Positions 15,311 to 45,721 of a stretch of DNA of 47,252 nucleotides are shown one piece after another. The DNA comes from Oscillospiraceae bacterium. GTDB lineage: Bacteria > Bacillota > Clostridia > Oscillospirales > JAAYXM01. Location: contig JAFSEA010000059.1 of assembly GCA_017435965.1 (NCBI GenBank), positions 1-47,252 of the forward strand, given 5' to 3'. A program made the translations under genes and the position numbers. The notes beneath the pieces were generated by a model, which ran no database searches, was not told the origin of the DNA, and saw only the letters and a list, made by a program, of their open reading frames with translations. Numbering within the stretch: position 1 is the first letter of the stretch; every line of letters starts with the position of its first letter.

Positions 15311-15324
15311 ACAATCACAACTTA

Positions 15325-15412: not shown

Positions 15413-15431
15413 TTTTTTAGTTTAGTATCAT

Positions 15432-29501: not shown

Positions 29502-31844
29502 ATGAAAATAGGTGTGCTTAACGACTTATTGAATAATATTGATTTTTCGTATGGTTTTGAGGGAAGCGGAAGAGAGCTTTCCATTGAAAAGAACGGAAAT
29601 CCAATTGTGGGGGAAACTCTCTCTGCTTTGTGGAATGTTGTGAGAAATTCTCCCATTGAGTTTAAATTAAAACTCGGAGAAAAGGCTTTTGTTGACCGTG
29701 TTGAGATAAAACTCGGAGAAAAGACAAAGATTACAAAAGCGGTTTTGAAGAATGAGGAAAATATTTTTTATACATATACCGCCGAGACGGGAAAGGCGGT
29801 AGAGGAAAAGTCCATAATCCTTGAGGCAGGAGAATTTTTGGACGAGTTTTCACTTATACTTTTTGCAGACTTTTCCGATATAGAAATTCTTTCAATAAAT
29901 CTTTACGGTGCACTTTGTGAAAGAGCAGATATATTCCCGATTCCGAAAAGTGCAGAATATGGCGATAAGAAAATTTCCGTATCGGTATTTTCGTCATATA
30001 GTGCCGATTGCGAAGATGGATTGCGTGCAGGAAAAGTTCTCTCCGAGAAGTTTTTTGAAGCGGCGGAAGTATCTATTTCGGAATCCGATGGCGGAAACAT
30101 TCGCTTTGTAACAGACAGCACGATAAAAGCAGACGGATATGAGCTTGAAGTGGATGAATCCGGTGCAAAAATTTCGGCATCAAATTTCCGTGGCTTTGTA
30201 TGCGGCGCAGAATGCCTTATAAAGCTTACGGATAAATATGGGGTACAAAAGGCAAAAATTTCCGACAGCCCGTTTCTTCCGTTCCGGGGAGTTCATTTGT
30301 TTTTGCCTTCCGTTGAAGAGATGCCCTTTGCAAAAAGACTTATCAAAAATATGATATCGCCTCTCGGATACAATGCAGTAATCATAGAGGTGGCAGGCTG
30401 TATGCAGTTTGATTCTCACCCCGAGATAAATGCTGCTGTTATGAATGCCATAGATATGCACAAAAAAGGACTGTGGCTGAAGTTTGCCCACGATGCGGTG
30501 GCGGCAGGAACGGTTGTTCCAAAAGCAGCAGTTGCAGAATTCGTTGACTATATAAGAAGTTTTGGCATTGAGGTTATCCCCGAGGTGCAGAGTCTCGGTC
30601 ACGTTCAGTTTATGACTCAGGCACACCCCGATATTGCAGAGATTGAGGATGATGCGGAAAATCGTAACATCGACACAAGGGGAGAAGATGCACGTCCCGA
30701 GAAATTCTATCGCCATTCCTATTGTCCTTCAAACCCCAAGTCATATGAGATTCTCTTTGACCTTCTTGATGAGGTGATTGAAGTGTTCAGACCTCGTGAA
30801 TATGTTCATATGGGACACGATGAGGTGTATGAAATCGGAGTATGCCCCATCTGCAAGGATAAAGACCCTGCCCGACTCTATGCCGATGATGTAAATAAGC
30901 TTTATTCATATCTTAAAGACAGGGGACTTAAGATGATGATATGGTCGGATATGATTCAGCCCATCACGAGATATAAAACACCCGGTGCCATTGATATGAT
31001 TCCGAAGGATATCCTCATGCTTGACTTTATCTGGTATTTCCATTTTGACAAGGATATTGAGGATAACCTTCTCAAAAAGGGCTTTAAAGTTGCTGTCGGT
31101 AACCTTTATTCAAGCCATTATCCGAGATATGAATCAAGAATCCGGAAAGAAGGAATGGTCGGAGGTCAGATTTCTGCATGGGTCGGCACAAATGAGCCTG
31201 AGCTTCAGGCAGAAGGTAAGCTCTATGACTTCATAATGACTGCCGAAATGCTTTGGGATGAAAAGTATTCAAAGATTTATACCCTTACCTATGACAATAT
31301 CATAAAAGGCATCATTCCGAAATTCAGAGAAGAGCTTCAGAATAAAAAGTATCCTTCTCTGTCGGAAAATGCAGAGAAGGAAATAGTCCTTGAAAACAGT
31401 ATATCTTTCCCACCGAAGCTTCCTGTTACACAGAAAACCGATATCGACGTGTCCGGAGATTTTGCGAGCCTCATTTTCTGCCATACCGAGCTTTCAAAGC
31501 TTACCCGACTTCCGTGGCAGGGGTATGACGAAACGGGAAGATATATTCTCACATATGACGACGGAAGTGTTGAAAATGTGGCGATAAATAACTGCGGCAA
31601 CATAGGCTATTGGAACAGAAGGCAAAACGACCCTCTTGCTCCGCAGCTATATCGTCATTCGGGATATATATGCACCTTCTCCGCCGACAGCGATGAAGAG
31701 AGAACTGCCTCGGGAGATCCTGTATGCATATACCGCTTTGAGCATATTCTGCCGAAGGACAAAAAGCTTGTGAACATAAAGCTTTGTGAAAATCCAAAGT
31801 TTGACACAAAGATATTTATCAGAAAAATAATCGGTGTGAAATAA
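29502..31844 (+). CDS. family 20 glycoside hydrolase (beta-N-acetylhexosaminidase-like), cytoplasmic
   Basis: 780-residue GH20-type enzyme expected to remove terminal beta-linked N-acetylhexosamine by substrate-assisted catalysis. The catalytic motif is H436-M-G-H-D440-E441, where most GH20 enzymes have HxGGDE. The barrel is also marked by FRGVHLFLPS, IEVIPEVQSLGHVQFM and YCPSNPKSYEILFDLLDEV. About 250 N-terminal residues form extra domains, and there is a C-terminal beta-rich domain. There is no signal peptide, so it acts on imported di- or oligosaccharides. A likely extended -10 (TGTTAGAAT, 29460-29468) and GAAGGAAAGGGG precede it. It is convergent with a murQ operon, suggesting amino-sugar salvage. 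Confidence 0.85.
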   Translation: MKIGVLNDLLNNIDFSYGFEGSGRELSIEKNGNPIVGETLSALWNVVRNSPIEFKLKLGEKAFVDRVEIKLGEKTKITKAVLKNEENIFYTYTAETGKAVEEKSIILEAGEFLDEFSLILFADFSDIEILSINLYGALCERADIFPIPKSAEYGDKKISVSVFSSYSADCEDGLRAGKVLSEKFFEAAEVSISESDGGNIRFVTDSTIKADGYELEVDESGAKISASNFRGFVCGAECLIKLTDKYGVQKAKISDSPFLPFRGVHLFLPSVEEMPFAKRLIKNMISPLGYNAVIIEVAGCMQFDSHPEINAAVMNAIDMHKKGLWLKFAHDAVAAGTVVPKAAVAEFVDYIRSFGIEVIPEVQSLGHVQFMTQAHPDIAEIEDDAENRNIDTRGEDARPEKFYRHSYCPSNPKSYEILFDLLDEVIEVFRPREYVHMGHDEVYEIGVCPICKDKDPARLYADDVNKLYSYLKDRGLKMMIWSDMIQPITRYKTPGAIDMIPKDILMLDFIWYFHFDKDIEDNLLKKGFKVAVGNLYSSHYPRYESRIRKEGMVGGQISAWVGTNEPELQAEGKLYDFIMTAEMLWDEKYSKIYTLTYDNIIKGIIPKFREELQNKKYPSLSENAEKEIVLENSISFPPKLPVTQKTDIDVSGDFASLIFCHTELSKLTRLPWQGYDETGRYILTYDDGSVENVAINNCGNIGYWNRRQNDPLAPQLYRHSGYICTFSADSDEERTASGDPVCIYRFEHILPKDKKLVNIKLCENPKFDTKIFIRKIIGVK

Positions 31845-31952
31845 GAGACATTTTTATATGATAATGATCTGAAATTATATTTTCGCACATCAGGATGGAA
31901 GAAACAGATGGTGAGTATCAAATTCAGATCGGGATTCTTGAACGAAAATGCT

Positions 31953-32762
31953 TTACAACCCTAAAGTTTTTATGACTTCTTTTATTGTCCAGTTATTTTC
32001 TTCAAGAAGATTTATGGCTCTTTCTTCATCGCATTTTACGATATCTCGGACGATGTTTATAACACGTTTTCTGAGCTTTTCGTTGGAGGGCTTGAGGTTG
32101 ACCATCATATTTTCATAGACGTGACCGAGCTTTATCATAACACAGGTGGAAAGCATGGTTGTCACCATCTTCTGTGCAGCCCCTGCCTTCATTCTTGTAG
32201 AACCCATAATTACCTCGGGACCTGTATCGGTAACTATGGAAATATCCGATTCAACATCAAGGCGACTGCCGAAGTTGGAGGAAAATCCGATGGTTTTGCA
32301 ACCGACAGTCCGGGCATAAGCAAGTGCATCGGCAACATATGCCGCATTCCCTGCTGCAGAGATTCCCACAATACGATCGTTGGAGGTGAGATTTAATGCT
32401 TTCAGATCGGATATTCCGGAAGACGCAATATCTTCTGCATTTTCGCTTGAAGAAAATACTCGCTCACGTCCTCCTGCAATAAGTCCCACAACTGTATCGG
32501 GAGAAACGCCGTAGGTGGGAGGACATTCCGTTGCATCAATGATTCCAAGCCTGCCCGAAGTGCCTGCACCTATGTATATAAGTCTTCCGCCTTTTCGCAT
32601 ACCTTCTTCTATGCAATCTGCGGCTTCGGCGATTTTTGGAAGAGCATCGTTTATCGCCTTTACTGCGTTTTCGTTTTCTGCCTGAATAAGGGAAAGAATA
32701 CCTATGGTTGATTCTTTGTGAATGTTCATTGTTGCAGGATTTCGCATTTCTGTTTTGTTCAT
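31953..32762 (-). CDS. murQ: N-acetylmuramic acid 6-phosphate etherase MurQ
   Basis: Cleaves the lactyl ether of MurNAc-6-P to give GlcNAc-6-P and D-lactate, for peptidoglycan amino-sugar salvage. The SIS-domain motif IYIGAGTSGRLGIIDATECPPTYG is diagnostic. GPEVIMGSTRMKAGAAQKMV follows, and a C-terminal UBA-like segment ends the protein (DEERAINLLEENNWTIKEVIKTL). At 269 residues it is slightly short but complete. Its start overlaps the stop of the upstream HTH-kinase gene as ATGA, showing translational coupling. No MurP-type PTS gene is nearby. Confidence 0.95.
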   Translation of the reverse strand: MNKTEMRNPATMNIHKESTIGILSLIQAENENAVKAINDALPKIAEAADCIEEGMRKGGRLIYIGAGTSGRLGIIDATECPPTYGVSPDTVVGLIAGGRERVFSSSENAEDIASSGISDLKALNLTSNDRIVGISAAGNAAYVADALAYARTVGCKTIGFSSNFGSRLDVESDISIVTDTGPEVIMGSTRMKAGAAQKMVTTMLSTCVMIKLGHVYENMMVNLKPSNEKLRKRVINIVRDIVKCDEERAINLLEENNWTIKEVIKTLGL

Positions 32763-33868
32763 TTTTTTAATGTCTCCTTATACATTTTCTTTGCAAGACG
32801 GACAGCACCGGATACCGGCTCACAGTCAAGCTTTCTGATATCAAAGTCATACTTATTGCCGAGGGAAGTCTTAAGATAAGAAATTGTAAGCGGGTCATTT
32901 GTGAGACCGCCTGCAAGGATAAGGGGTATCTTTTTGGTGGAAAGCTTTTCTGCATTTGCAAGAACGAATATGGCGGCATTTTCCATATTATGTTTGATTA
33001 TATCATTGGCAGTTTTATCGCCTATCCTTGCCGCTTCATAAACAAAATGAGCAAAGGATGCAACGTATTTCTTGCCCTTGTCGTATATATGGAAAAGAAG
33101 ATTCTGAGGAGAAGTAAACCCTGCCTTATCCATAAGGAGAGTTATCTTGCTTTTCTTTCCACAACCGTCCTTTTCACGGTAGTATGTAATAAGAGCTTCT
33201 CTGCCGATATCAAAGGCACTTCCGCCATTGTCTATAAAATAACCTCTTCCGCCGACCTGAGAACGCTTTCCGTCTTTCTGGAGAAAGGAGCAAACGCCTG
33301 TTCCGAGAATAAGGGTTATGCCGTCGGAGGAATCAAGACCTGCCGCAATTATATTTGCGTTGTCGGTGTCTGCCTTGTAAGCCATAAAGCCAAACTTTGA
33401 AAAGAACTCATCAAAGTGCTTTTCCATACCTCCCGATGTACAGCCTGCTATGCCGGCAAAGCATACCACGGAAGAGAAGGAAAGCCCTTCGCAGATGTCA
33501 TAGATTCCTTTTTTCAGTATCTCCGTTGCACGTTCAATCCCTATGTCAATGGGGTTTGAACAGTCGGTGCATATTTCCCTTATGGGAGTGCCGTCGGCTT
33601 CCGCGAGGGAAAGAACCGTTTTGGTTCCACCGCCGTCAATGCCGAGAAGATAAGCCTTGCCACCGTCGGCAAAAAGGGCTTCCACGGTTGTTTTAAGATA
33701 TGACGAGAGAGAAAGAAGCACCTCAATATCGGGAATACTTTGTGCACATTCCCACTTGCTGACCGCCTTCTCGGAACAGCCTGCCGCTTCTGCAAGCTCC
33801 TTTTGGGTTATGTTCATCTTTTTTCGAAGCATTTTGATGTTTTTTGCAAATCTTTCTTCTATGCTCAT
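32759..33868 (-). CDS. HTH regulator fused to a BadF/NagK-type sugar kinase
   Basis: 369-residue fusion. Residues 1-70 are an XRE HTH domain (NIKMLRKKMNITQKELAEAAGCSEKAVSKWECAQSIPDIEVLL). From about residue 72 a BadF/BadG-type ASKHA ATPase begins with YLLGIDGGGTKTVLSLAE and continues with GITLILGTGVCSFL, GGRGYFIDNGGSAFDIGREAL and a late LILAGGLTND. This resembles N-acetylglucosamine kinases of the family. I choose ATG 33868, with GGTGGTGA upstream, over an ATG-like start 15 codons earlier. It is coupled to murQ and driven by a perfect sigma-A promoter. One polypeptide may phosphorylate or sense GlcNAc/MurNAc and control its own operon. Confidence 0.87.
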   Translation of the reverse strand: MSIEERFAKNIKMLRKKMNITQKELAEAAGCSEKAVSKWECAQSIPDIEVLLSLSSYLKTTVEALFADGGKAYLLGIDGGGTKTVLSLAEADGTPIREICTDCSNPIDIGIERATEILKKGIYDICEGLSFSSVVCFAGIAGCTSGGMEKHFDEFFSKFGFMAYKADTDNANIIAAGLDSSDGITLILGTGVCSFLQKDGKRSQVGGRGYFIDNGGSAFDIGREALITYYREKDGCGKKSKITLLMDKAGFTSPQNLLFHIYDKGKKYVASFAHFVYEAARIGDKTANDIIKHNMENAAIFVLANAEKLSTKKIPLILAGGLTNDPLTISYLKTSLGNKYDFDIRKLDCEPVSGAVRLAKKMYKETLKK

Positions 33869-33904
33869 AAAGTCACCACCGGCTCTGAATTGCTTTCTGT
33901 CTTG

Positions 33905-33933
33905 ATTATACAAGCATTAAACTCTCTTGTCAA
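33905..33933 (-). promoter_or_regulatory. sigma-A promoter of the HTH-kinase/murQ operon
   Basis: Perfect consensus on the minus strand: TTGACA (33933-33928), 17-nt spacer, TATAAT (33910-33905). A second TTTGACAA lies about 20 nt upstream of the first, giving a direct repeat that could matter for regulation. Confidence 0.92.
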
Positions 33934-34020
33934 ACTACTTTCGGTGGGATTTGTCAAAAAAATCTACCGGAGGGAGGGTGGCTTGCAGAATAAAGTGAAC
34001 AAAATAGAGAATTAAATGTA

Positions 34021-34049
34021 TTGCCCATAGTAAAAAAATCGTGTATAAT
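34021..34049 (+). promoter_or_regulatory. sigma-A promoter of the rhamnose isomerase operon
   Basis: TTGCCC at 34021-34026 and TATAAT at 34044-34049 with a 17-nt spacer, followed by AGGAGGTG 8 nt before the rhaA ATG. Confidence 0.85.
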
Positions 34050-34090
34050 AGCATTGTGAAAAATACCCATCGTTTGAGGAGGTGCACAGT

Positions 34091-35326
34091 ATGTGCAGAT
34101 ATAACGAGGCAAAAGAAATTTATTCGACTTTTGGAATCGACACGGAAAAAGCGATAGACACACTTAAAAATGTCACAATCTCTGTCCATTGCTGGCAGGG
34201 TGATGATGTTGTTGGCTTTGACAGTCGTGAGAGCCTTTCGGGCGGAATACAGACCACCGGTAATTATCCCGGAAGAGCAAGAACTTTTGAAGAGCTCACA
34301 AAGGATCTTGAACTTGCGTTTTCGCTTATGCCGGGAAAGAAAAAACTCAACATTCACGCAAGCTATGCATTGCTTGACTCAGAAAATGTCGGAAGAGACG
34401 AGATAAAGCCCTGTCACTTTGCGAAGTGGGTAGAGTTTGCAAAAAAGCACAATGTGGGAATAGACTTTAACCCCACCTTTTTTGCCCATCCTATGGTGCG
34501 AGACGGACTCACACTTTCCTCTCCCGATGAAGAAGTTCGTGCATATTGGGTTAAGCACGGAATAGCTTGTCTTAAGATTTCGGAGTATTTTGCCGAAGAA
34601 ACGGGAATACCCTGTGTTATGAATATCTGGATTCCAGACGGCTATAAGGATATTCCGGCAGACAGACTTTCGCCCCGTGCGAGATTTAAAAAGTCTCTTG
34701 ATGAAATTCTTGACACGCCTTATGATAAGTCAAAGGTATATGTAACTCTTGAATCAAAGGTGTTCGGAATCGGCGTTGAAAGCTACACGGTGGGTTCTGC
34801 GGAATTCTGCCTTTCATATTCCGATTATAAAGGCATAACACCCCTTATGGATAACGGACATTACCATCCCACAGAAGTTGTTTCCGATAAGATTTCTGCA
34901 CTTCTTCTTTTTAATGAAAAGATAGCTCTTCATATAACCCGTGGTGTTCGCTGGGATAGTGACCACGTGGTAATATTTGATGATGAAACAAAGGAAATTG
35001 CAAAGGAAATTGTGAGAAACAATGCCCTTGACAGGGTGTTTATCGCAACGGACTATTTTGATGCATCAATCAACCGTATTTCTGCCTGGGTAACGGGTGT
35101 GAGAAGCGTTAGCAAGGCACTTCTCTTTGCACTTCTCCAGCCGGCTGAAAAGCTTCAGAAGCTTCAGGAAGAGGGCGACTTCACAAGTGTTATGGCACTT
35201 TCGGAGGAAATGAAGACTGCACCCTTCGGCGATGTATGGGAAGAATTCTTAAAGCGTGAAGGAACGGAAAAGAATTACTTATCCGTAATCAAAGATTATG
35301 AGAAAAATATACTTTTAAATCGTTAG
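34091..35326 (+). CDS. rhaA: L-rhamnose isomerase RhaA
   Basis: Isomerises L-rhamnose to L-rhamnulose in the cytoplasm. It is 411 residues, close to family length. Recognisable segments are VHCWQGDDVVGFDSRESLSGG, MPGKKKLNIHASYALLDSENVGRDEI, GIDFNPTFFAHPMVRDGLTLSSPDE, and PLMDNGHYHPTEVVSDKISALLLF with metal-binding His/Asp. I take ATG 34091 with AGGAGGTG 8 nt upstream; GTG 34082 is within that site. It is followed 11 nt later by a class II aldolase. No rhamnulokinase gene (rhaB) is in the window, so the pathway needs a kinase from elsewhere. Confidence 0.95.
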   Translation: MCRYNEAKEIYSTFGIDTEKAIDTLKNVTISVHCWQGDDVVGFDSRESLSGGIQTTGNYPGRARTFEELTKDLELAFSLMPGKKKLNIHASYALLDSENVGRDEIKPCHFAKWVEFAKKHNVGIDFNPTFFAHPMVRDGLTLSSPDEEVRAYWVKHGIACLKISEYFAEETGIPCVMNIWIPDGYKDIPADRLSPRARFKKSLDEILDTPYDKSKVYVTLESKVFGIGVESYTVGSAEFCLSYSDYKGITPLMDNGHYHPTEVVSDKISALLLFNEKIALHITRGVRWDSDHVVIFDDETKEIAKEIVRNNALDRVFIATDYFDASINRISAWVTGVRSVSKALLFALLQPAEKLQKLQEEGDFTSVMALSEEMKTAPFGDVWEEFLKREGTEKNYLSVIKDYEKNILLNR

Positions 35327-35337
35327 GAGAACTGGGA

Positions 35338-36342
35338 ATGAAAGATTTTGTTAAGATGTGTGCCGCAATCGGCGGTATGAAAGATTATGTTCAGGGTGGC
35401 GGCGGAAATGCCTCCTGCAAACATGATGCAAACAAAATGGCGATAAAGGCTTCCGGTTTTACAATCGGTGAAATTACGGAGGATTCAGGTTATGCGGATG
35501 TAGATTACATCAAAATTTGTGAGTACCATACAGGGGTCAAAGAAAATGAGCTTGCAGAGCGTGAGAAAAACTCAACTCCCTTCACAATGTCCTGTGTATT
35601 CCCGGATAAAAACGGAAACAAGCTTCGCCCCTCTGTTGAAACGGGATTCCATTCCTTTATGAAGAAATATGTTATGCACACCCATCCTGTTTATGCAAAT
35701 GCAATAACCTGTGCATCGGGCGGTGCAGAACTTGCAAAAAAAATATTGGGAGATGCGGATTTTATCTGGATTCCATACATTAACCCCGGCTTTTCCCTCA
35801 CTCTCGTAATCAAGGCTGCTATGGATGCATATGAAGAGAAAACCGGAATCTTCCCGAAGATTATATTCCTTGAAAACCACGGTCTTATAACAACCTCGGA
35901 CGATGCGGAGGAGTGTCTTGCACTTCATTTTGAAGTGAACGAAAAGATTAAAGCATATCTCGGTGCAGAAGATTTTGTGAAGAGTATCAGTCTTTCTGAA
36001 AAGGATGATGCATATATCTGCGAAGATGCCTTTGTCTCTGACTTTGTAAGCACTTTCGGAGTTGAAGAAATAGAAAAGAGCATCCTCTATCCCGATCAGC
36101 TTGTTTACCTCAATGCAGCAATGAAGGACGGAAAAATTGCGTTTTCCGATAGCTCCATAACCATAAATGCACCGAAGAAAGAGGCACTTGCTATAGTTGA
36201 GACCTTTGCGGCATTCTGTTATGTTGTTAAGGCGATAAAAAAAGCAGATCTTACCATACAGGTAATGGATAATGAGGCTACCGGTTTTATCAATAACTGG
36301 GAAAGTGAAAAATACAGAAAGTCCGTGGCATCACAGAAGTAA
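35338..36342 (+). CDS. class II aldolase/adducin-domain protein, probable rhamnulose-phosphate aldolase
   Basis: 334-residue zinc aldolase of the class II type. The N-terminal QGGGGNASCKHD fits the phosphate-binding GNxS region, and E101 in SVETGFHSFM lies near the active site. Zinc ligands H114 and H116 are in VMHTHPVYAN, and H181 in FLENHGL. It is longer than E. coli RhaD and resembles the aldolase half of longer bifunctional rhamnose enzymes, with a C-terminal extension of about 90 residues. Coupling to rhaA points to splitting rhamnulose-1-phosphate into DHAP and lactaldehyde; the specificity is inferred. AGGAG precedes the ATG. Confidence 0.82.
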   Translation: MKDFVKMCAAIGGMKDYVQGGGGNASCKHDANKMAIKASGFTIGEITEDSGYADVDYIKICEYHTGVKENELAEREKNSTPFTMSCVFPDKNGNKLRPSVETGFHSFMKKYVMHTHPVYANAITCASGGAELAKKILGDADFIWIPYINPGFSLTLVIKAAMDAYEEKTGIFPKIIFLENHGLITTSDDAEECLALHFEVNEKIKAYLGAEDFVKSISLSEKDDAYICEDAFVSDFVSTFGVEEIEKSILYPDQLVYLNAAMKDGKIAFSDSSITINAPKKEALAIVETFAAFCYVVKAIKKADLTIQVMDNEATGFINNWESEKYRKSVASQK

Positions 36343-36358
36343 AGAAATTGAATTTGAA

Positions 36359-36392
36359 AAGAGCGTTGATTTTTTCGATAATCAACGCTCTT
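36359..36392. terminator. bidirectional terminator between aldolase and epimerase genes
   Basis: Perfect 12-bp stem AAGAGCGTTGAT (36359-36370) / ATCAACGCTCTT (36381-36392), loop of 10 nt, between convergent genes, with T-rich sequence on the plus-strand 3' side. Confidence 0.88.
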
Positions 36393-36397
36393 GTTCT

Positions 36398-37537
36398 TTA
36401 TAGAATCGGAACTTCTCCGTTTGAGTCTGCAAGGGATAACCAGATGAACAGCCTCGGAATGTGGAACGGGCCTTTGAAGATATTACCCTTTAACGGATTT
36501 GCAACGGTATTGTCATAATGGAGATAACCAAACCATTCAAGACCGTCCTTATCCTCAAAGTGAGTGAGGGTGTAGTCGAGAAGGTTTTTGAAGTTTGTAT
36601 TGTATTTCTCAATGCCTGTGAGCATATGAGCCATCTTATTTGCAATAATCGCTTCGCATTGCGGCCACCAGAGCTTCATATCCCATTCAAGGGAAGTGGG
36701 CGGATTTCCGAGATAGTCACAGAATGCAATTATTCCACCATCGAAGAGACCTCTCTTCATGGAAAAGTCAATTATGCGAAGTCCCGCATCTATGAGAGAT
36801 TTATCATTTTGATATACTCCTTCTGTCATAATAAACCAGGCGGCTTCAAGAGAATGACCGGGATTTACCGTTCGTCCGAGAGGAGTGTCGGCGAAGCTTC
36901 CGTCAGAATATACGTGTTCAAGAAGAACATCGTCACGGAGATAACCACCGTTTATGATTTCGGAAACCATTTCTTTTGCTATGGCATTGTATTTGTGGCA
37001 ATCAAGTTTACGCATCACCTGTGCTGTGGCGAGCATTATCATAACGGGAGAAAGGGATTTATACGGAGCATTTGCGGGATTGAACTTTGGTGTTGTGAGG
37101 GATGGATTGTTAAAAATTGCATAGGCGGTATCAAAGTAGTTTTCTGCACATTTCCTTGCATTTTCATTGCCTGTTGCAAGATAGTATTCTGCACAGCCGA
37201 TTGCGGCGAAGGTTTCGCTGAAATAATATCTTCGCTTCTGGATTCCTTTTCCGTCTTCCGTTACGGTGAAGTACATTCTGCCGTCAATGTCCGTGCATTT
37301 CGGGAGAAAATTAAAAATGCATTCCGCAGCCTTCAGATATTCGCTTTTTTTGTCAACGGAATTATAGGTTTTTGAGAAAACCCACAAAGCTCGTCCCTGA
37401 AACCACACACTCTTTTCACGACCGTATATTTTTCCGTCTTTGTCAAGAGAAGTAAAGATACCTCCATTGGTATAGTCTATTGCATTGTCAAGCCAAAATT
37501 TGAGTATATTATCTGAAAGATATTTTTGATAATTCAT
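36398..37537 (-). CDS. AGE-family epimerase/isomerase (N-acylglucosamine 2-epimerase type)
   Basis: 379-residue alpha/alpha-barrel enzyme of the AGE superfamily, which includes N-acetylglucosamine 2-epimerase, mannose isomerase and cellobiose 2-epimerase. Diagnostic segments are KSVWFQGRALWVFS, YYFSETFAAIGCAEYYLATG, GRTVNPGHSLEAAWFIM, and WDMKLWWPQCEAIIANKMAH with the paired catalytic histidines late in the chain (H-x-GP-FHIPR). The substrate cannot be fixed; GlcNAc/ManNAc is attractive beside an SASA esterase and amino-sugar genes. It is monocistronic and divergent from the SASA gene across an inverted repeat. Confidence 0.87.
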   Translation of the reverse strand: MNYQKYLSDNILKFWLDNAIDYTNGGIFTSLDKDGKIYGREKSVWFQGRALWVFSKTYNSVDKKSEYLKAAECIFNFLPKCTDIDGRMYFTVTEDGKGIQKRRYYFSETFAAIGCAEYYLATGNENARKCAENYFDTAYAIFNNPSLTTPKFNPANAPYKSLSPVMIMLATAQVMRKLDCHKYNAIAKEMVSEIINGGYLRDDVLLEHVYSDGSFADTPLGRTVNPGHSLEAAWFIMTEGVYQNDKSLIDAGLRIIDFSMKRGLFDGGIIAFCDYLGNPPTSLEWDMKLWWPQCEAIIANKMAHMLTGIEKYNTNFKNLLDYTLTHFEDKDGLEWFGYLHYDNTVANPLKGNIFKGPFHIPRLFIWLSLADSNGEVPIL

Positions 37538-37621
37538 ACCGACACCTCTGTTGTTTTGTTGTTATTTCAGTTTAACACAGTCTCGGTTTTTTTTCAACCG
37601 TTGGTATGTAACATTATACAG

Positions 37622-37646
37622 AAGGTGCAAATATAGGTTGCACCTT
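37622..37646. promoter_or_regulatory. perfect inverted repeat between divergent AGE and SASA genes (candidate operator)
   Basis: AAGGTGCAA (37622-37630), a 7-nt spacer, then TTGCACCTT (37638-37646). The right arm covers TTGCAC (37638-37643), which is 17 nt before TACAAT (37661-37666) and so the probable -35 of the SASA operon. On the minus side a TATAAT lies at 37618-37613. A following T run means it could instead terminate or attenuate transcription, but no plus-strand gene ends nearby. Confidence 0.65.
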
Positions 37647-37693
37647 TTTGCTTTTGGTGATACAATAAGTTTAATAGTCGCAGAGGTGATATG

Positions 37694-38428
37694 ATGATTA
37701 AAGACGGAATTTCAAAAGGTGAAAATAATATCCGGTCATTTCTTATGATCGGACAATCAAATATGTCCGGCAGAGGTGAGTTTGGCGATGTTCCTCCCAT
37801 AAAGAATGAACTGTGCTTTATGCTTCGTATGGGAAGATGGCAGCCTATGAGCGAGCCTATAAATGTTGACAGAGATATTCTCAATATAAGATTCCACAGC
37901 GGTATTGGTCTTGCGGCAAGCTTTGCAGATGAGGTTGCAAAGCTCACAAATTCGGCAGTAGGGCTTATCCCATGTGCCGATGGTGGTACCGGAATAAGTC
38001 AATGGCAACCAGGTGAGGTTCTTTTTGACCACGCTGTTATGATGACAAGGCTTGCTCTTCGCACATCGGAATTTGGCGGAATAATCTGGCATCAGGGTGA
38101 GAATGACTGCGGAAATTTCGACGCAGACAGCTACAGAAAGATGTTTTTAAACACAATGACTGCTCTGCGAAAGGAACTTGATGCGGAAAAACTCCCACTT
38201 ATAATAGGTGAGCTTTCGGAAAGTATTTCAGATGAGTATAAGCTTGGCGATAATCCCCAAAAGATGAATGTGCTTTTGCATTCTCTGGCAGCGGAGCTTC
38301 CGAATTGTGCGGTTGCACCGGCAAAGGAACTTGAACTTAAACCCGACGGACTTCACTTCAATGCCGTTTCCTGCAGAGAGCTTGGAAGAAGATACTTCCA
38401 AAAGTACAGAGAGCTTATCGGGAAATAA
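37694..38428 (+). CDS. SASA-domain carbohydrate/sialate O-acetylesterase
   Basis: 244-residue SGNH-type esterase of the sialate O-acetylesterase-like (SASA) family. The nucleophile motif is FLMIGQSNMSGRG. ADGGTGISQW follows, then GGIIWHQGENDC and the C-terminal catalytic DGLHFN. No signal peptide is seen, so it acts inside the cell on imported acetylated sugars. I choose ATG 37694 because GAGG is 7 nt upstream; ATG 37691 is equally in frame. It is the first gene of a five-gene operon through the N-acetyltransferase gene. Confidence 0.87.
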   Translation: MIKDGISKGENNIRSFLMIGQSNMSGRGEFGDVPPIKNELCFMLRMGRWQPMSEPINVDRDILNIRFHSGIGLAASFADEVAKLTNSAVGLIPCADGGTGISQWQPGEVLFDHAVMMTRLALRTSEFGGIIWHQGENDCGNFDADSYRKMFLNTMTALRKELDAEKLPLIIGELSESISDEYKLGDNPQKMNVLLHSLAAELPNCAVAPAKELELKPDGLHFNAVSCRELGRRYFQKYRELIGK

Positions 38429-38443
38429 GGGAAGTGAAAAGAT

Positions 38444-39097
38444 ATGACGGTATCTGAGCTTGTTTTGTTGATACTTGAGATAATAGGAACCATTTCGTTT
38501 TCCGTGTCGGGAGCTATGGTGGGAATAAAAGCACGGCTTGATATTTTCGGAGTTGTGTTTGTAAGCGCCATAACTGCTTTCGGAGGGGGAATTCTGAGGG
38601 ACATCCTTATCGGAAGAACGCCGCCTGCAATATTTGAAAACGGATATATGGTGCTGCTTTCTTTTCTGTCGGCAATAGTCGTTTTTATTATAATACGTTT
38701 TAAGAAAGATGAGTTTTCGGTTTTCGAGGAGAGAATAGAATTCATAAACAACTTCTTTGATGCAATAGGGCTTGCAGCTTTTTCTGTTATGGGAACGGAG
38801 GTTGCCTTTGCCGCCGGTTTTTCGGGAAATGTTTTCATATCCGTAACTCTCGGTATGCTAACAGGTATCGGCGGCGGAATTTTCAGAGATGTGCTGACGG
38901 ATTCGACACCCTTTGTGTTTAAAAAACACATTTATGCTGTGGCATCAATCATAGGAAGCACATTGTATTACATATTGAGAAATAATTTTGAAAATCTCGT
39001 TGTTGTGTCTGTGGTACCGATAGTCGTGATTTTTTCAATAAGAATGCTTGCAACGAAATATCGTTGGAGTCTTCCTAAAATCAAAGTGGAAAAATAA
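38444..39097 (+). CDS. TRIC/UPF0126-family membrane protein
   Basis: 217-residue membrane protein with about seven hydrophobic helices and an internal duplication. The two repeats carry the family motifs TAFGGGILRDILIGRTPP (about residues 45-62) and TGIGGGIFRDVLTDSTP (about residues 145-161). The family is known as prokaryotic trimeric intracellular cation channels (YadS-like). Some members are linked to glycine uptake, so the transported species is open. It starts 15 nt after the SASA gene and is likely co-transcribed. Confidence 0.9.
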   Translation: MTVSELVLLILEIIGTISFSVSGAMVGIKARLDIFGVVFVSAITAFGGGILRDILIGRTPPAIFENGYMVLLSFLSAIVVFIIIRFKKDEFSVFEERIEFINNFFDAIGLAAFSVMGTEVAFAAGFSGNVFISVTLGMLTGIGGGIFRDVLTDSTPFVFKKHIYAVASIIGSTLYYILRNNFENLVVVSVVPIVVIFSIRMLATKYRWSLPKIKVEK

Positions 39098-39117
39098 AAT
39101 TTACGGAGGAATATAAA

Positions 39118-39972
39118 ATGTTTAAATTGGGTCTTTCAACGAACGCAAAGGAAATCTCGGAAAAACTTTTTGCCGAATATAATGCGGCAGGGATTGAAAA
39201 TATGGAAGTCAGCACTTCTTATGACCTGTATGAAGGGCTTAACTATGAAAAGCTTTTGGAATATTCAAAAAAATATGATGTAAAGCTGTGGTCCTTTCAT
39301 CTCCCCTTTATGCCCTTTGATGAAATTGACATTTCAGACAGAAGTCTTAAGGCACATACATTGAAGTATCTCAAGAGCCTTATTGAGAAAGCAACGGCAA
39401 TCGGGATTGATAAGTTTATAATCCATCCCAGCGGAGAGCCGATTGCGGAGGAAGACCGACGTGAAAGACTTGATTGCGCAAAGGAAAGTCTTTTTGAACT
39501 TGCGGAGTTTTCAAAAGCTCATGGTGCCGTTATGGCGGTAGAGAACCTTCCGAGAACTTGCCTTGGTAGAAATTCAGAGGAAATGAAAGAGCTTCTCAGC
39601 GCCCACGATAACCTTCGCTCCTGCTTTGATACAAATCATCTTCTCGGTGAGAAGTTTGAAGATTACATTCAAAATATTGGAAATAAAATTATAACAATGC
39701 ATACTTCCGATTATGACTATTTAAACGAAAGACATTGGCTTCCGGGAGAAGGTAAGACTGATTGGAAGTCCCTTCGTGATGCCCTTGTAAGTGTAAATTA
39801 TAGCGGAATATGGTTATATGAGGTCGCCTTTGCAGCACCGCCTTCAATTGTGAGAGAAAGAGATCTGACTTGTATGGATTTTATCCGCAACGCTGATGAA
39901 ATCTTGAATGATAAATCCATCACGGTGTTGGGAACTCCCGTTTCGGGACTCAAGCATTGGACGGAAATGTAA
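39118..39972 (+). CDS. sugar phosphate isomerase/epimerase, xylose-isomerase-like TIM barrel
   Basis: 284-residue AP-endonuclease-2 type TIM barrel. Metal-site segments are KLWSFHLPFMPFDEID, FIIHPSGEPI, MAVENLPRTCLG, CFDTNHLLGE, TMHTSDYD and WLYEVAF, giving the His/Glu/Asp set typical of sugar isomerases/epimerases and IolE/IolI-like dehydratases. The substrate is unknown. ACGGAGGA lies 7 nt before the ATG. It is co-operonic with SASA, TRIC and the AraM-like gene, so a linked sugar or glycerol-phosphate product is plausible. Confidence 0.85.
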   Translation: MFKLGLSTNAKEISEKLFAEYNAAGIENMEVSTSYDLYEGLNYEKLLEYSKKYDVKLWSFHLPFMPFDEIDISDRSLKAHTLKYLKSLIEKATAIGIDKFIIHPSGEPIAEEDRRERLDCAKESLFELAEFSKAHGAVMAVENLPRTCLGRNSEEMKELLSAHDNLRSCFDTNHLLGEKFEDYIQNIGNKIITMHTSDYDYLNERHWLPGEGKTDWKSLRDALVSVNYSGIWLYEVAFAAPPSIVRERDLTCMDFIRNADEILNDKSITVLGTPVSGLKHWTEM

Positions 39973-39984
39973 GGAGACAACAAA

Positions 39985-41238
39985 ATGGATATACAGGCAC
40001 TTCACAGAAGTTTTGAAAATTGCACCTGCGGGAGAGTGCACAGCTGTCCTGTTGAATTTGTGGAAATAGGTCACGGCGCAACGGTAAAGATTGCAGAGGT
40101 ATGCAGGGATTACAAGAAAATTTTACTTGTGTCCGATGAAAATACATATAAAGCTTGCGGAAAGTCTGTTTCGGATTTACTTTCGGAAAAGGTGGAAAAG
40201 AATCTTATCCTCAGATCAGATGGAAAGGTTGTTATTCCCGATGAAGAAAAGATTTCGGAAATAGAAGCTGCGATAACGAAAGAAACCGATTTTGTTGTAG
40301 GTGTCGGTTCCGGCGTTATAAATGACCTCTGCAAATATGTGAGCTTTAAGAATAATCTCCGATATTGCATTGTTGCAACTGCGCCTTCTATGGACGGTTA
40401 TGCTTCCGTAGGCTCGGCACTTATTCTTGAGGGAATGAAAGTAACGCTCAACGCACGTCCGCCTATGGCCATAATTGCAGACACCGAAGTTTTGAAGGAT
40501 GCATCCTTTGATATGATTCAGGCGGGTTATGGCGATATCATAGGAAAGTTTTCCTGCCTTAATGACTGGAAACTCAGCACTCTTATAAATGGAGAATATT
40601 TCTGTGAGGCTGTATATAATCTCACGGAAGATTGTACAAAAAGAGTGGTGAAAATGGCAGAGGGCATAGTTGCAAGAGATGAAGATACCATTGGTGCACT
40701 TATGGAAGCTCTTGTTACCGTGGGTGTTGCGATGAGCTATGTCGGAAACTCAAGACCTGCATCGGGAAGCGAGCATCACCTGTCACACTTTTTTGAAATT
40801 ACCGGTATTCTTGATAATAAGGAATACTTTGCTCATGGCATAGATGTGGCGTTTTCTGCGGTCAAGACCGCAAAGATAAGAGAAGGTCTGTTAAGTAGAA
40901 CACCTTGCCACAATGCTTTTGTGAGAAGTGAGTGGGAAAACGAAATAAGAAGGATATATTCTACTTCCGCGGATGGAGTTATAGCACTTCAGGATAAACT
41001 CGGCTGGTATATGAGGGATGATGAAAAGGTTGTTTTGGATAAGTGGGAAGAAATTCGCGCTGTTTTAAAAGAATCGCCGTCACCTTCGGAGTTTGAGAAA
41101 ATGCTTTCAAAAGTAGGTCTTGATTTTGCGGACTTTAAAAAGCTCTACGGGGAAGACAAGATAAAGGATGCAAGACGGTATGCAAAGGATTTAAAAGACA
41201 GATATACCGTTTTGTGGCTTGATTATTGCTACTTTTAA
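39985..41238 (+). CDS. araM: AraM/EgsA-type sn-glycerol-1-phosphate dehydrogenase
   Basis: 417-residue iron-alcohol-dehydrogenase-fold enzyme of the bacterial AraM/EgsA group, which reduces DHAP to sn-glycerol-1-phosphate. Features are CTCGRVHSCPVEFVEIGHGA at the N-terminus, FVVGVGSGVINDLCKYVS for NAD(P) binding, ATAPSMDGYASVGSALIL, and GDIIGKFSCLNDWKLS. Metal histidines are in RPASGSEHHLSHFFEI and the later FAHGIDV. A long C-terminal helical part follows. It starts 12 nt after the TIM-barrel gene. In Bacillus the product is used for an archaeal-type glyceryl phosphate; the role here is not known. Confidence 0.87.
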   Translation: MDIQALHRSFENCTCGRVHSCPVEFVEIGHGATVKIAEVCRDYKKILLVSDENTYKACGKSVSDLLSEKVEKNLILRSDGKVVIPDEEKISEIEAAITKETDFVVGVGSGVINDLCKYVSFKNNLRYCIVATAPSMDGYASVGSALILEGMKVTLNARPPMAIIADTEVLKDASFDMIQAGYGDIIGKFSCLNDWKLSTLINGEYFCEAVYNLTEDCTKRVVKMAEGIVARDEDTIGALMEALVTVGVAMSYVGNSRPASGSEHHLSHFFEITGILDNKEYFAHGIDVAFSAVKTAKIREGLLSRTPCHNAFVRSEWENEIRRIYSTSADGVIALQDKLGWYMRDDEKVVLDKWEEIRAVLKESPSPSEFEKMLSKVGLDFADFKKLYGEDKIKDARRYAKDLKDRYTVLWLDYCYF

Positions 41239-41248
41239 GGAGAAAAAT

Positions 41249-42088
41249 ATGTCGGGTGAGAAAAATAGTCCCTTTGAAAAAGTGTATGAGTCGATAAAAG
41301 ATGTAAATGCATATCTTAATCGCATAGGCTTTGACGGAAAAGTAATTCCGTCAATTGATTGCCTCAAAGAGCTTATGCGTTGTCACCTTATGACAGTTCC
41401 TTTTGAAAATCTCGACGTTTTTCACGGACATAAAGAACCGTCTCTTGAAGTGGATGTTATGTTTGAGAAAATAGTTATAAAACGTCGCGGCGGATATTGC
41501 TTTGAGCTTAACGGTCTCTTTTCAAAGCTTCTTGAAGCTGTTGGTTTTTCGGTCTCTTCTTCAATTGCGAGAATAAGATTCGGAAGAGACTTTATTCCAC
41601 CTGCGGCTCACCGTGTGATTACAGTAAAAATAGCGGATAAAAGCTATTTCTGTGATGTGGGATTCGGTGGACCCGTTCCCCTTGAGCCCATAGAAATCGC
41701 ATACGATAAAGTGATTGAGTTAAAAGGGGACAGAAGGTATAAATTTTCCCGTGAAGAGAGGGGAACAACTCTTCTTATTGAGAAAGACGAAAACTTTGTT
41801 CCCGTTCTTATGTTTGATGATTTTACTTGCGATGAAGCGGATTTTATACCACTGAACGCATTTTGTGCTTACTCGGTTTATGAGCCGTTCAGGAAAAGAC
41901 AGATGCTATGGAAGCTTACCGAAAATGGAAGATACTCCATTGACGGAGATGTTTTGCGGCTTTCGGAAAATGGCAAGACTTCAGAAATGCGTCTTGCGAC
42001 TGAAGCGGAGCTTCGGAATGCGTTTGAAAAGTATTTCGGCATTGTATATGAAGAAGAATTAAGAGAATGGAAATGTTTTCAAAAGTGA
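41249..42088 (+). CDS. arylamine N-acetyltransferase
   Basis: Transfers acetyl from acetyl-CoA to arylamines or related amines. The catalytic triad is complete: C84 in RRGGYCFELN, H121 in PAAHRVIT, D136 in CDVGFGGP. It is 279 residues from ATG 41249, chosen because AAGGAG is 7 nt upstream; an upstream TTG overlaps the previous gene. TVPFENLDVFHG is the usual N-terminal motif. It is last in the SASA-TRIC-TIM-AraM-NAT run, and its physiological substrate is unknown; it may be a metabolite made by the operon or a dietary xenobiotic. Confidence 0.93.
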   Translation: MSGEKNSPFEKVYESIKDVNAYLNRIGFDGKVIPSIDCLKELMRCHLMTVPFENLDVFHGHKEPSLEVDVMFEKIVIKRRGGYCFELNGLFSKLLEAVGFSVSSSIARIRFGRDFIPPAAHRVITVKIADKSYFCDVGFGGPVPLEPIEIAYDKVIELKGDRRYKFSREERGTTLLIEKDENFVPVLMFDDFTCDEADFIPLNAFCAYSVYEPFRKRQMLWKLTENGRYSIDGDVLRLSENGKTSEMRLATEAELRNAFEKYFGIVYEEELREWKCFQK

Positions 42089-42117
42089 TTGCAAAACGTG
42101 TTTTGAAGTGCTACAAT
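42089..42117 (+). promoter_or_regulatory. trkAH promoter with an internal inverted repeat
   Basis: TTGCAA at 42089-42094 and TACAAT at 42112-42117 with a 17-nt spacer. CAAAAC-GT-GTTTTG (42092-42105) is an inverted repeat overlapping the -35 and spacer, a possible operator. Confidence 0.75.
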
Positions 42118-42154
42118 AAGCTTGTTGAATTGATGTTTTTAAGGAGAGTCTTTA

Positions 42155-43528
42155 GTGAATATTATAGTTGTCGGTTGCGGCAAGGTAGGAACAACTCTTG
42201 TTCGGGAACTTGCCGAGGAAAAACATAATATAGTAGTTGTTGATATAGACCAGGAAAAGCTTGACGAACTGGGTAATACTCTTGATGTAATGTGCGTTGA
42301 AGGTCAGGGAGAATCCGTTTCGGTTCTCAAAGAAGCACAGGTTGAAAGTTGCGATCTTTTGATTGCTATGACTCGTTCTGATGAAATAAATCTTTTGAGT
42401 TGTCTTATGGCAAAGAAACTTGGCGCCAAAAATACTATAGCAAGAGTGCGAAATCCTATTTATGCCGATGGTATAAATTTAATAAAGGATGACCTTGGTC
42501 TTAGTCTTGCAATAAATCCGGAGCTTGCGGCAGCAAATGAAATATCACGTTTGTTGAGATTTCCGTCTGCTATTCAGGTTGAAACTTTTGCAAAGGGCAG
42601 AGTTGAAATTATGAAGTATAAAATCCCTGAAGGATCTGTGCTTTGTGAGCTTCGTCTCTTCCAGCTTCGTCCGCGTCTTAAAACTACAGTCTTTATATGT
42701 GCTATAGAGCGTGGTGATGATGTATTTGTTCCGACCGGCGATTTCGTTCTTAAAGCGGGAGATGTTATATCTTTTGTTGCACCAATAAGAGTTGCAACTG
42801 AATTTTTTGAAAAAGTAGGTACGTTTACTTCCGAAATTCGCGATGTTGTTATTATCGGCGGAGGTCGAATCACATACTATCTTACAAAGAAGTTGCTTGA
42901 ATCAAGGCTTCGCGTGAAGATAATAGAGATAAATCGTGAACGCTGTGAGGAACTCAGCGAACTGTTGCCTGAAGCCATAATTATAAACGGAGACGGGACC
43001 AACAACAATCTGCTTCATGAAGAACATATAGAAAACGCAGATGCTGTCCTTAGTCTTACCGGTGTAGACGAGCAGAATGTGCTTATGTCAATCTATGCAT
43101 CACAACAGGTTCCGAAGGCGAAGATTGTAACGAAGATAAAGCATTTTGACTTTGATGATGTTTTAAGAGGAATGCCTATCGGAAGCATAGTTTATCCAAA
43201 ACATATTACAGCGGATAGAATTCTTCAGTACGTCCGTGTTATGCAGAATTCTTGGGAAGCAAGTATGGAATCGCTCCATAGAATTGTCGATGACAGAGTA
43301 GAAGCATTGGAGTTTCGTATTCGTGAGAAGACTCCGCTTAATGGAATTACTTTTTCTGAATTAAATATAAGAAAAGGGACACTTATTGCCTGTATAACAA
43401 GAAACGGAGTCACATTTACCCCGGGAGGAAAGGATAGCATACAGCTCGGTGATACGATTATCGTTGTTACAACTCATATGGGCATAAGCAAGATAGAACA
43501 GATACTTGAAGATGAAACGGAGAAATAA
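42155..43528 (+). CDS. trkA: Trk potassium uptake regulatory subunit TrkA
   Basis: Peripheral nucleotide-binding subunit that gates the TrkH channel. It is 457 residues with two RCK modules. The first Rossmann domain starts MNIIVVGCGKVGTTLVREL with acidic strand end VVDID, and a TrkA_C domain follows at about residues 140-220. The second Rossmann domain starts at about residue 228 (VVIIGGGRITYYLTKKL, IIEINRERCEEL, IINGDGTN), followed by a second TrkA_C. GTG 42155 has AAGGAGAG upstream. trkH begins immediately after the stop. Confidence 0.96.
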   Translation: MNIIVVGCGKVGTTLVRELAEEKHNIVVVDIDQEKLDELGNTLDVMCVEGQGESVSVLKEAQVESCDLLIAMTRSDEINLLSCLMAKKLGAKNTIARVRNPIYADGINLIKDDLGLSLAINPELAAANEISRLLRFPSAIQVETFAKGRVEIMKYKIPEGSVLCELRLFQLRPRLKTTVFICAIERGDDVFVPTGDFVLKAGDVISFVAPIRVATEFFEKVGTFTSEIRDVVIIGGGRITYYLTKKLLESRLRVKIIEINRERCEELSELLPEAIIINGDGTNNNLLHEEHIENADAVLSLTGVDEQNVLMSIYASQQVPKAKIVTKIKHFDFDDVLRGMPIGSIVYPKHITADRILQYVRVMQNSWEASMESLHRIVDDRVEALEFRIREKTPLNGITFSELNIRKGTLIACITRNGVTFTPGGKDSIQLGDTIIVVTTHMGISKIEQILEDETEK

Positions 43529-44968
43529 ATGAATACCAAATTAGTTTTAAAACTTAACGGATATATTCTTCTGTTCGATGTTTTTGCAATGGTCTTACCG
43601 CTGATTGTGGCCGGAATTTATAAAGAAAGCACGGGAATGGCATTTCTTCCCGTGATGCTTCTTTGTCTTGCGGTTGCTATACCGCTTATCAGAATTAAGC
43701 CGCAAAAGCGAGATTTGTTTGCGAGAGAAGGGCTTGTGACTGTGGCTCTTGCTTGGATAATTATGAGCTTTGTCGGAGGACTTCCTTTCTTTTTTTCAAG
43801 AGAAATCCCAAACCTTATAGACTGCTTCTTTGAAAGTGCCTCCGGCTTTACAACGACAGGTGCGACTATACTTACCGATATTGAAGCTATGAGTAAATGT
43901 ATGCTCTTTTGGAGAAGCTTTACGCATTGGATTGGAGGAATGGGCGTACTTATGTTCGTCCTTGCGATAGCACCTCTTGCCGGTGGAAATAATATGCAGC
44001 TTATCCGGGCTGAATCTCCGGGACCGCAGGTAGAAAAGCTTTTGCCGAAAGCAAATTCAACAGCAAAAGTTCTCTATGGAATGTATATAGGTCTGACAGT
44101 TCTTCAGGTTATTTTCCTTATGTTTGGAAATATGCCGCTTTTTGATGCACTTACAACGGCGTTCGGAACTGCAGGCACAGGTGGCTTTGCAATAAAGAGC
44201 AGCAGTATGGGGGGATACAGTCAGTATACTCAGATTGTTGTTACGGTATTTATGCTTCTGTTTTCCGTGAACTTTAATATTTACTTTTTTATCATAGCTA
44301 AAAAGTTTTCGTCGATCTGGAAAAATGAGGAGCTTCGGGCGTTTGCAATAATTGTTTTCGCATCTATTGCACTTATAACGCTTAATACGGTACAGCTTTT
44401 TGAAAATTTGGGCGGTGCAATTCATCATTCGTCTTTTGCGGTAGCTACAATTATTTCAACATCCGGTTTTTCTACGGTTGATTTTAATACGTGGCCTGAT
44501 TTTTCAAAAACACTGCTTGTTGTACTTATGTTCATAGGTGCTTGTGCCGGCTCAACCGGCGGCGGAATCAAAGTTTCAAGAATTTTGATTATGTTTAAGT
44601 CGTTAAAGCGTGAGTTTTTCGTGCTTATTCATCCGAGAAGTGTAAAAACCATAAGAATTAGTGGAAAGAAGATAGATGATGAGACGGTAAAAAAAGTCAA
44701 TTCATATATGATATGCTATATACTTTTGTTTTTTATTTCATTTCTCATTATTTCTTTTGACAACTTCGGTTTTGAAACAAATTTTACAGCTGTCGCTGCG
44801 ACTCTGAACAATATAGGTCCGGGACTCGGTGCAGTCGGTCCGGCAGGGAATTTTGCAGCTTTCTCACCGCTTTCAAAAATCGTTTTCGCAATAGATATGA
44901 TATGCGGACGACTTGAGCTTTTCCCGATATTGATTCTCTTTTTGCCGCACACATGGAAAAAATATTAA
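43529..44968 (+). CDS. trkH: Trk potassium uptake channel subunit TrkH
   Basis: Potassium-translocating membrane subunit, 479 residues, with four M1-P-M2-type repeats. The selectivity-filter segments are visible in order: SASGFTTTGATIL, FGTAGTGGFAIKS, ISTSGFSTVDF and NNIGPGLGAVGPAGNFA, each with the filter glycine. The N-terminal helices match the TrkH/KtrB family (HWIGGMGVLMFVLAIAPLAGG). ATG 43529 abuts the trkA stop, so the two are co-expressed. Confidence 0.96.
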   Translation: MNTKLVLKLNGYILLFDVFAMVLPLIVAGIYKESTGMAFLPVMLLCLAVAIPLIRIKPQKRDLFAREGLVTVALAWIIMSFVGGLPFFFSREIPNLIDCFFESASGFTTTGATILTDIEAMSKCMLFWRSFTHWIGGMGVLMFVLAIAPLAGGNNMQLIRAESPGPQVEKLLPKANSTAKVLYGMYIGLTVLQVIFLMFGNMPLFDALTTAFGTAGTGGFAIKSSSMGGYSQYTQIVVTVFMLLFSVNFNIYFFIIAKKFSSIWKNEELRAFAIIVFASIALITLNTVQLFENLGGAIHHSSFAVATIISTSGFSTVDFNTWPDFSKTLLVVLMFIGACAGSTGGGIKVSRILIMFKSLKREFFVLIHPRSVKTIRISGKKIDDETVKKVNSYMICYILLFFISFLIISFDNFGFETNFTAVAATLNNIGPGLGAVGPAGNFAAFSPLSKIVFAIDMICGRLELFPILILFLPHTWKKY

Positions 44969-45021
44969 AGTGAGGCGTTGTTTTATCATAAATTGCGCTC
45001 TGCTAAAAAGGAGAATTATCG

Positions 45022-45657
45022 GTGATTGATTTTGAAAAAGAAAAATATGCAATTTCTGTTTCACAAATGAGAAACAGCGACAGATATACAATAGAAAACT
45101 TCACATCGGGAAAAGAACTTATGTATAGAGCCGCTATGGGAATATACAATTCCGCTGATTGGAGAAAAAAGAGGATTGCAATTGTCTGCGGAAGTGGGAA
45201 TAACGGCGGCGATGGTTATGCTCTTGCCGGAATACTTGCAGATAATGGCGAAGCTCCTGTAATATTCAGAATCAGCGAGAAATTTTCGGAAGACGGTTCT
45301 TTTTACTACAAACAAGCCAAAAAGAAAGGTGTAAAGGATATTACGTTTACATTGAAAAATGACCTTTCGGGCTTCGATATAGTAGTGGATTGTATTCTTG
45401 GTACAGGGTTTCGGGGAAATCCCGAAGGAATTGTGGCTGATGCGATAAATACAATAAACAATTCAGGTGCTTATGTCATAAGTGCAGATATAAACAGCGG
45501 ACTTAATGGGGATACGGGAGAAGCACAACTTGCAGTAAAATCAGACCTTACAGTTTCTATTGGTTACTATAAAAAAGGAATGTTTAAGGGCAAAGCACCT
45601 GAAAATATCGGAGAGCTTGTGAATGTTGATATAGGCATAGTGTTGACTTGCGAGTAA
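45022..45657 (+). CDS. nnrE: NAD(P)H-hydrate epimerase (YjeF N-terminal domain)
   Basis: Epimerises damaged R-NAD(P)HX to the S form for repair. It is 211 residues, a stand-alone YjeF_N domain. Key motifs are LMYRAAMGIYNS near the N-terminus, VCGSGNNGGDGYALAGILADNG, VVDCILGTGFRGNPEG, and ISADINSGLNGDTG. The ADP-dependent dehydratase domain (NnrD), often fused, is absent and no separate gene is seen here. GTG 45022 has AAAAGGAGAA upstream. It lies 53 nt after trkH and may be co-transcribed with it. Confidence 0.9.
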   Translation: MIDFEKEKYAISVSQMRNSDRYTIENFTSGKELMYRAAMGIYNSADWRKKRIAIVCGSGNNGGDGYALAGILADNGEAPVIFRISEKFSEDGSFYYKQAKKKGVKDITFTLKNDLSGFDIVVDCILGTGFRGNPEGIVADAINTINNSGAYVISADINSGLNGDTGEAQLAVKSDLTVSIGYYKKGMFKGKAPENIGELVNVDIGIVLTCE

Positions 45658-45681
45658 ATATTTACTTTTGTTTTTTGTGTC

Positions 45682-45690
45682 TGTTATAAT
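45682..45690 (+). promoter_or_regulatory. extended -10 promoter of the PfkB kinase gene
   Basis: TGTTATAAT at 45682-45690 is an extended -10 (TGnTATAAT). The -35 position (TTACTT, 45662-45667, 17 nt upstream) is poor, as is usual with an extended -10. Confidence 0.8.
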
Positions 45691-45721
45691 CAAATCAATA
45701 ATACAAAAAGAGGTGTTTTAT

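Follow-up and report, generated by a model that had tools for sequence, protein, structure and literature searches.

An XRE-type DNA-binding domain fused to a MurK-type kinase: a candidate autoregulator of murQ operons in Clostridia

The DNA considered here, which we call the window, is the stretch of 47,252 nucleotides that makes contig JAFSEA010000059.1 of an Oscillospiraceae bacterium, a member of the sporulating Clostridia (SpoIIGA and sigma factors are present in its genome). On the minus strand, positions 32759 to 33868 encode a 369-residue protein that associates an XRE helix-turn-helix (HTH) domain with a kinase domain of the BadF (MurK) type. Both Pfam domains belong to one open reading frame, in which residues 11-63 match HTH_3 (E 1.4e-12) and residues 75-358 match BcrAD_BadFG (E 2.9e-26); a preliminary description of the region was right in joining an HTH to a full BadF/NagK-type kinase. 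The gene is likely to start at ATG 33868, preceded by GGTGGTGAC, because homologues align from that position; a listed TTG start at 33913, inside the sigma-A promoter, is unlikely. It is followed by murQ (31953 to 32762, minus strand), coding for a MurNAc-6-phosphate etherase of 269 residues that passes the cut-off of the NCBIfam equivalog TIGR00274 (323.7 bits, cut-off 302). The two coding sequences, 33868-32759 and 32762-31953, share the 4 bp ATGA, which is the translational overlap that had been announced. The fusion gene is driven, again as described earlier, by a perfect sigma-A promoter, TTGACA-N17-TATAAT (33905 to 33933, minus strand), an exact consensus whose -35 element begins 65 bp upstream of ATG 33868. 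Chance would place 0.02 exact sites of this kind in the window. The only other one there (15282-15310, plus strand) drives a TPP riboswitch (15317-15426, plus strand), which precedes the gene of a ThiT/YuaJ thiamine transporter. The fusion-murQ pair is surrounded by a sugar island (29502-46750) that comprises a convergent GH20-like hexosaminidase gene and divergent RhaA and aldolase genes. The island also encodes a member of the GlcNAc 2-epimerase family, a SASA esterase, a sugar isomerase-like protein and a PfkB kinase.

The HTH domain (residues 1-66; 33671 to 33868, minus strand) is of the Cro/C1 type. It scores 47.9 bits against PF01381, for a cut-off of 23, and it is through this domain that NCBIfam PRK08154 matches the fusion. 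An AlphaFold2 model of the protein (pLDDT 93) shows a five-helix fold there, with high pLDDT (helices 3-17, 22-29, 33-40, 48-57 and 63-66). The recognition helix, S32-E-K34-A-V-S-K-W-E40, belongs to a class marked by Lys34. The protein has no match to the ROK domain PF00480, and the HTH, being of the HTH_3 family, comes indeed from a DNA-binding family other than that of the ROK proteins.

The kinase domain (residues 72-369; 32762 to 33655, minus strand) is recognized by its Pfam match, its motifs and its fold. The PF01869 profile is matched over its full length (1-270 of 271; 93 bits, cut-off 31.5), and NF046058, the equivalog of the NagK_SO3507 GlcNAc kinase, gives 80.8 bits for a threshold of 370. 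The nearest solved folds found by Foldseek are the hexokinase of Sulfolobus tokodaii and MurK from Clostridium acetobutylicum (E about 1e-19), followed by human NAGK and the MurK of T. forsythia. Modelling and alignment find the kinase residues in place: D78GGG and K83T84 (DGGGTKT 78-84), N105, the catalytic D169, GTG189-191 and GG320-321. These cover the phosphate-1, catalytic Asp, phosphate-2 and adenosine motifs of the family. Across all 37 fusions compared (37/37), no change is seen in the D/GGG/KT residues, N105, both motif glycines, the catalytic Asp or the GT of GTG; the catalytic Asp and ATP motifs are also essentially invariant in relatives that are linked to murQ but lack the HTH. 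The residue preceding the catalytic Asp is Ser or Thr in 33 of the 37; in T. forsythia MurK, a Thr at this place is one of the two features reported to give room to the lactyl ether of MurNAc (PMC10465942).

The sugar pocket differs from that of its models at one place. In the loop of residues 205-217 (33218-33256, minus strand), where the window protein reads D213-N214-G215, Asn214 replaces the Asp that contacts the C1-OH of the sugar in the MurK enzymes of T. forsythia (D141) and C. acetobutylicum (D149). In the murQ-linked kinase clade, the near-universal GDEGS loop has become D-x-G/A-GS. Asp is kept at the C1-OH position in 5 of 37 fusions against 44 of 45 distant kinases, this residue being a usual, not strictly defining, feature of NagK/MurK-type kinases. 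An acidic residue is found one position before the lost Asp in 35 of the 37 fusions. The change may only shift the sugar contact, or it may signal a different anomeric substituent.

The HTH-BadF architecture and its gene neighbours were searched with profiles in about 785 sampled genomes of the order and class, and in one scan of GTDB contigs. This gave 38 distinct fused open reading frames in the sampled Clostridia. The fusion is no assembly artefact, because of these 38 loci and because the same architecture is found again in relatives, at 68%, 46%, 32% and 29% identity by alignment. A murQ gene adjoins the fusion in 36 of the 38 loci: it is the next gene downstream in 33 and the next one upstream in three; the remaining two are a truncated frame (L152) and a locus with no murQ within 1.5 kb (L115). 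The operon of L022 adds nagB, and other loci add glycoside-hydrolase-like genes (DUF6259, DUF4838). Genome G561 has two fused kinase-murQ pairs (L150 and L156). On a Planctomycetia contig, a single open frame codes for MurQ together with a kinase of the BadF type (L089, 1812-3788). Close relatives without the HTH are often adjacent to murQ too. In a kinase-domain tree, fused and unfused members form one supported clade of 63 rows, and the tree requires 11 gains or losses of the fusion; the HTH has therefore been repeatedly gained or lost. With an active site invariant in 37 fusions and murQ in 36 of 38 loci, comparison lends support to the early proposal that the kinase acts on MurNAc or GlcNAc, or senses it.

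The analysis also brought out a candidate operator. Palindrome scans with a free position returned nothing by score, and the signal was measurable only once promoters were aligned on their -10 element. Across 29 fused promoters aligned in this way, an inverted repeat of 15 bp (5-N5-5) stands out with its start at -67, where arm pairs average 2.69 (z 6.8). With a call set at no fewer than four of five arm pairs, at most 3 bp away from the -67 position, the repeat is present in 23 of the 29 (shuffles: mean 5.0, maximum 11, n=500), in 2 of 10 unfused relatives and in 49 of 364 background promoter-like sites (13%). A second, weaker copy, scored with each promoter's own-type consensus, peaks at -38, against the -35 element and 29 bp from the first, and this 29-bp spacing recurs in diverged loci. 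In the window, the candidate operator O1, CCTCC-CTCCG-GTAGA (33963 to 33977, minus strand), starts 67 bp upstream of the -10 element. The weaker candidate O2, CCCAC-CGAAA-GTAGT (33934 to 33948, minus strand), abuts the -35 element, 29 bp from O1. The divergent rhaA has O1 upstream of it too, and may also be affected.

The type of site follows the recognition helix. Proteins with an S-x-K (Lys) helix have TCTAC-N5-GTAGA-like sites (11 of 11) and those with an S-x-Q (Gln) helix have TCAAC-N5-GTTGA-like sites (15 of 18; Fisher 3.6e-6), an association that is not phylogenetically independent, as it comprises three helix-residue changes and one or two independent pairs, and reflects mostly two clades. 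Not all loci conform: the window's own O1 is imperfect, with three of five arm pairs, six of the 29 fused loci are below the four-of-five threshold, L022 being without recognisable site, and, outside this set, no operator-like site was seen at the promoters of L140, L142 and L028. The block around O1 is conserved with G003, the 68%-identical relative, beyond all 2000 shuffles, and an extended O1 pattern occurs exactly once per genome, in that of the window and in G003, at the fusion gene. The K-type site shows no genome-wide enrichment over its reversed control, so that single genomic copies prove nothing, and it is position and neighbours that count. Two other ideas were set aside. A direct repeat in the window promoter is weak (5 of 200 shuffles) and absent from G003. 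A role of the palindromes as terminators was rejected for most loci, in view of the many without stable hairpin, the divergent gene upstream in the window and the fixed spacing. The preliminary description proposed that the protein directly controls its own operon. This proposal receives comparative support from the inverted repeat, which keeps its place upstream of the promoter, varies with the recognition helix and is lacking in most of the unfused relatives.

Similar sites are found outside these promoters. The G032 fusion lies within an operon that begins with a DUF6259 gene, and the perfect Gln-type site before the operon promoter is the only WTCAAC-N5-GTTGAW of the genome. In L147, murQ stands ahead of the fusion, with a Gln-type site before murQ. 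L148 encodes a Lys-type protein within the Gln clade, with a Lys-type site carrying one mismatch and placed 5 bp further out. G410 has only three TCTAC-N5-GTAGA sites. One precedes the operon of the fusion and murQ, another a DUF4838-nagA operon, and these two have identical 10-bp arms, AAAACTCTAC/GTAGAGTTTT; the third precedes a DUF6259 gene. To call the circuit self-contained overstates the case of G410, since other amino-sugar genes have this site there as well. A DUF4838 gene follows murQ in L025. More generally, DUF4838 and DUF6259 proteins (L217 and L218 in G410, L106 in G032, and L025) recur in the neighbourhood or regulon of murQ and nagA; they may be hydrolases that release amino sugars. 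Finally, a separate XRE regulator of about 200 residues has the helix SDKA(V/I)SKWE (L210, at G000:C119:4484, L203, L205 and L207). A perfect TCTAC-N5-GTAGA lies upstream of its start in G000, G003, G004 and G233, which supports the link between helix and site from another family. Cross-talk with this regulator might explain the divergence of the window's own operator.

As for the pathway, the host assembly is 88% complete, and genes absent there may simply be missing from the assembly. Searches of it returned neither AnmK nor PTS_EIIC, nor another BadF kinase of the NagK type: apart from the fusion, the one full-length BadF match belongs to a tandem acyl-CoA dehydratase activator, and the remaining match is weak, below cut-off. 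NagA is present. Because MurQ needs MurNAc-6P and these other sources were not found, the fused kinase is the likely provider of MurNAc-6P in this host. ROK-family proteins, some of kinase length, are also encoded there and may be a second source.

From what was computed (the fusion, its linkage to murQ, an intact active site and a conserved site that tracks the helix) we infer DNA binding, dimerisation, MurNAc as substrate and effector, and the direction of control. In the reading that we favour, with a probability of about 0.78, the fusion would be both an active kinase of MurNAc and a regulator of its own salvage pathway, most likely repressing it when substrate is lacking. The C-terminal domain would use ATP to phosphorylate MurNAc, and possibly GlcNAc too, at C6. 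The co-translated MurQ would convert MurNAc-6P into GlcNAc-6P and D-lactate, and NagA and NagB would then feed GlcNAc-6P to glycolysis or wall synthesis. The N-terminal domain, presumably as a dimer, would bind O1, and O2 more weakly, before its own strong promoter. Without substrate the protein would most likely repress the operon, and domain closure on sugar and ATP would release or weaken DNA binding. This is what sugar binding does in ROK repressors.

Repression is favoured over activation, by about two to one, because the promoters are consensus-like: 27 of 37 have no more than two mismatches, and eight are perfect. Upstream of the -35 element, O1 has a place that would fit an activator as well. 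A bifunctional protein whose DNA-bound form activates transcription is accordingly a minority option that deserves attention: both O1, centred at about -72, and O2, at about -43, lie upstream of -35 instead of spanning the promoter or start, their 29-bp spacing recurs, and lambda CI at PRM is a precedent for such positions, whereas promoters so near to consensus should make an activator needless. It is rather doubtful that the protein is a kinase-active enzyme-regulator whose altered anomeric pocket would bind 1,6-anhydro-MurNAc or a muropeptide, not free MurNAc, and whose phosphorylation of the wall fragment would reset its own DNA binding; the substrate could differ, because the C1-OH Asp is Asn214 here and Asp in so few fusions. 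Still less probable is a pure regulator, where the kinase domain would merely sense sugar or ATP, another enzyme making MurNAc-6P. The precedent is BzdR, in which the shikimate-kinase-like domain is devoid of kinase activity (PMC3602430), and most members have lost the C1-OH Asp; against it stand the catalytic Asp and ATP motifs, kept with or without the HTH, and the other MurNAc-6P sources sought and not found in the host assembly. Least probable of all is that the HTH of the kinase is decorative or vestigial and that the palindromes arise by chance or terminate upstream genes. Some sites (e.g. L003, L126, L141) do form hairpins with T tails and several close relatives lack the HTH, but this domain is under at least as much constraint as the kinase (dN 0.17 versus 0.22, window against G003), the site keeps its distance to -10, tracks the helix and is missing from most unfused relatives, and the window has a divergent upstream gene and no hairpin.

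Several known systems resemble the fusion reading, that of an active MurNAc kinase controlling its own operon. The MurNAc/GlcNAc kinase MurK of C. acetobutylicum (PDB 8zo3) shares with it the BadF/NagK-type fold, motifs and pathway; at about 27% identity, it has no HTH and keeps the GDEGS loop, with Asp149, where the fusion has D-x-G/A-GS. ROK repressors (NagC, Mlc, XylR, Lmo0178) similarly combine a DNA-binding domain with a sugar-kinase fold of the same superfamily, a sugar being the expected effector. The fusion differs from them by its XRE instead of ROK-type HTH, the absence of PF00480 and its intact catalytic site. NadR of enterobacteria, made of an HTH, an NMN adenylyltransferase and a ribosylnicotinamide kinase, is likewise an active enzyme that bears its own DNA-binding domain and controls its pathway, with other enzyme domains and another pathway. 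In BzdR/BoxR, too, an XRE domain is joined to an effector domain derived from a kinase, which is shikimate-kinase-like and has another kinase fold. MurR, of the RpiR type, regulates the murQ operon or lies in it in E. coli, S. aureus and B. subtilis (PMC5061867); in MurR systems the regulator is separate, and import by a PTS (MurP) takes the place of the kinase. Regulator-kinase fusions are therefore already known (ROK, NadR, BzdR). What appears to be new, in the open-access literature searched, where no report of it was found, is the combination of an XRE domain with a MurK-type kinase whose catalytic residues are intact, together with a family of candidate operators.

For Clostridia, including many uncultured gut members, this would be a control of MurNAc salvage that needs neither MurR nor a PTS. 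The proposed one-residue code between helix and operator (Lys versus Gln) is directly testable. From BzdR it has been argued that regulators arise when a DNA-binding domain is fused to an enzyme whose activity is lost later, and that evolutionary intermediate was illustrated by constructing a synthetic chimera whose kinase is active (PMC3602430). With fused and unfused members side by side, their active sites intact, the present family seems to hold this enzyme-regulator intermediate in nature.
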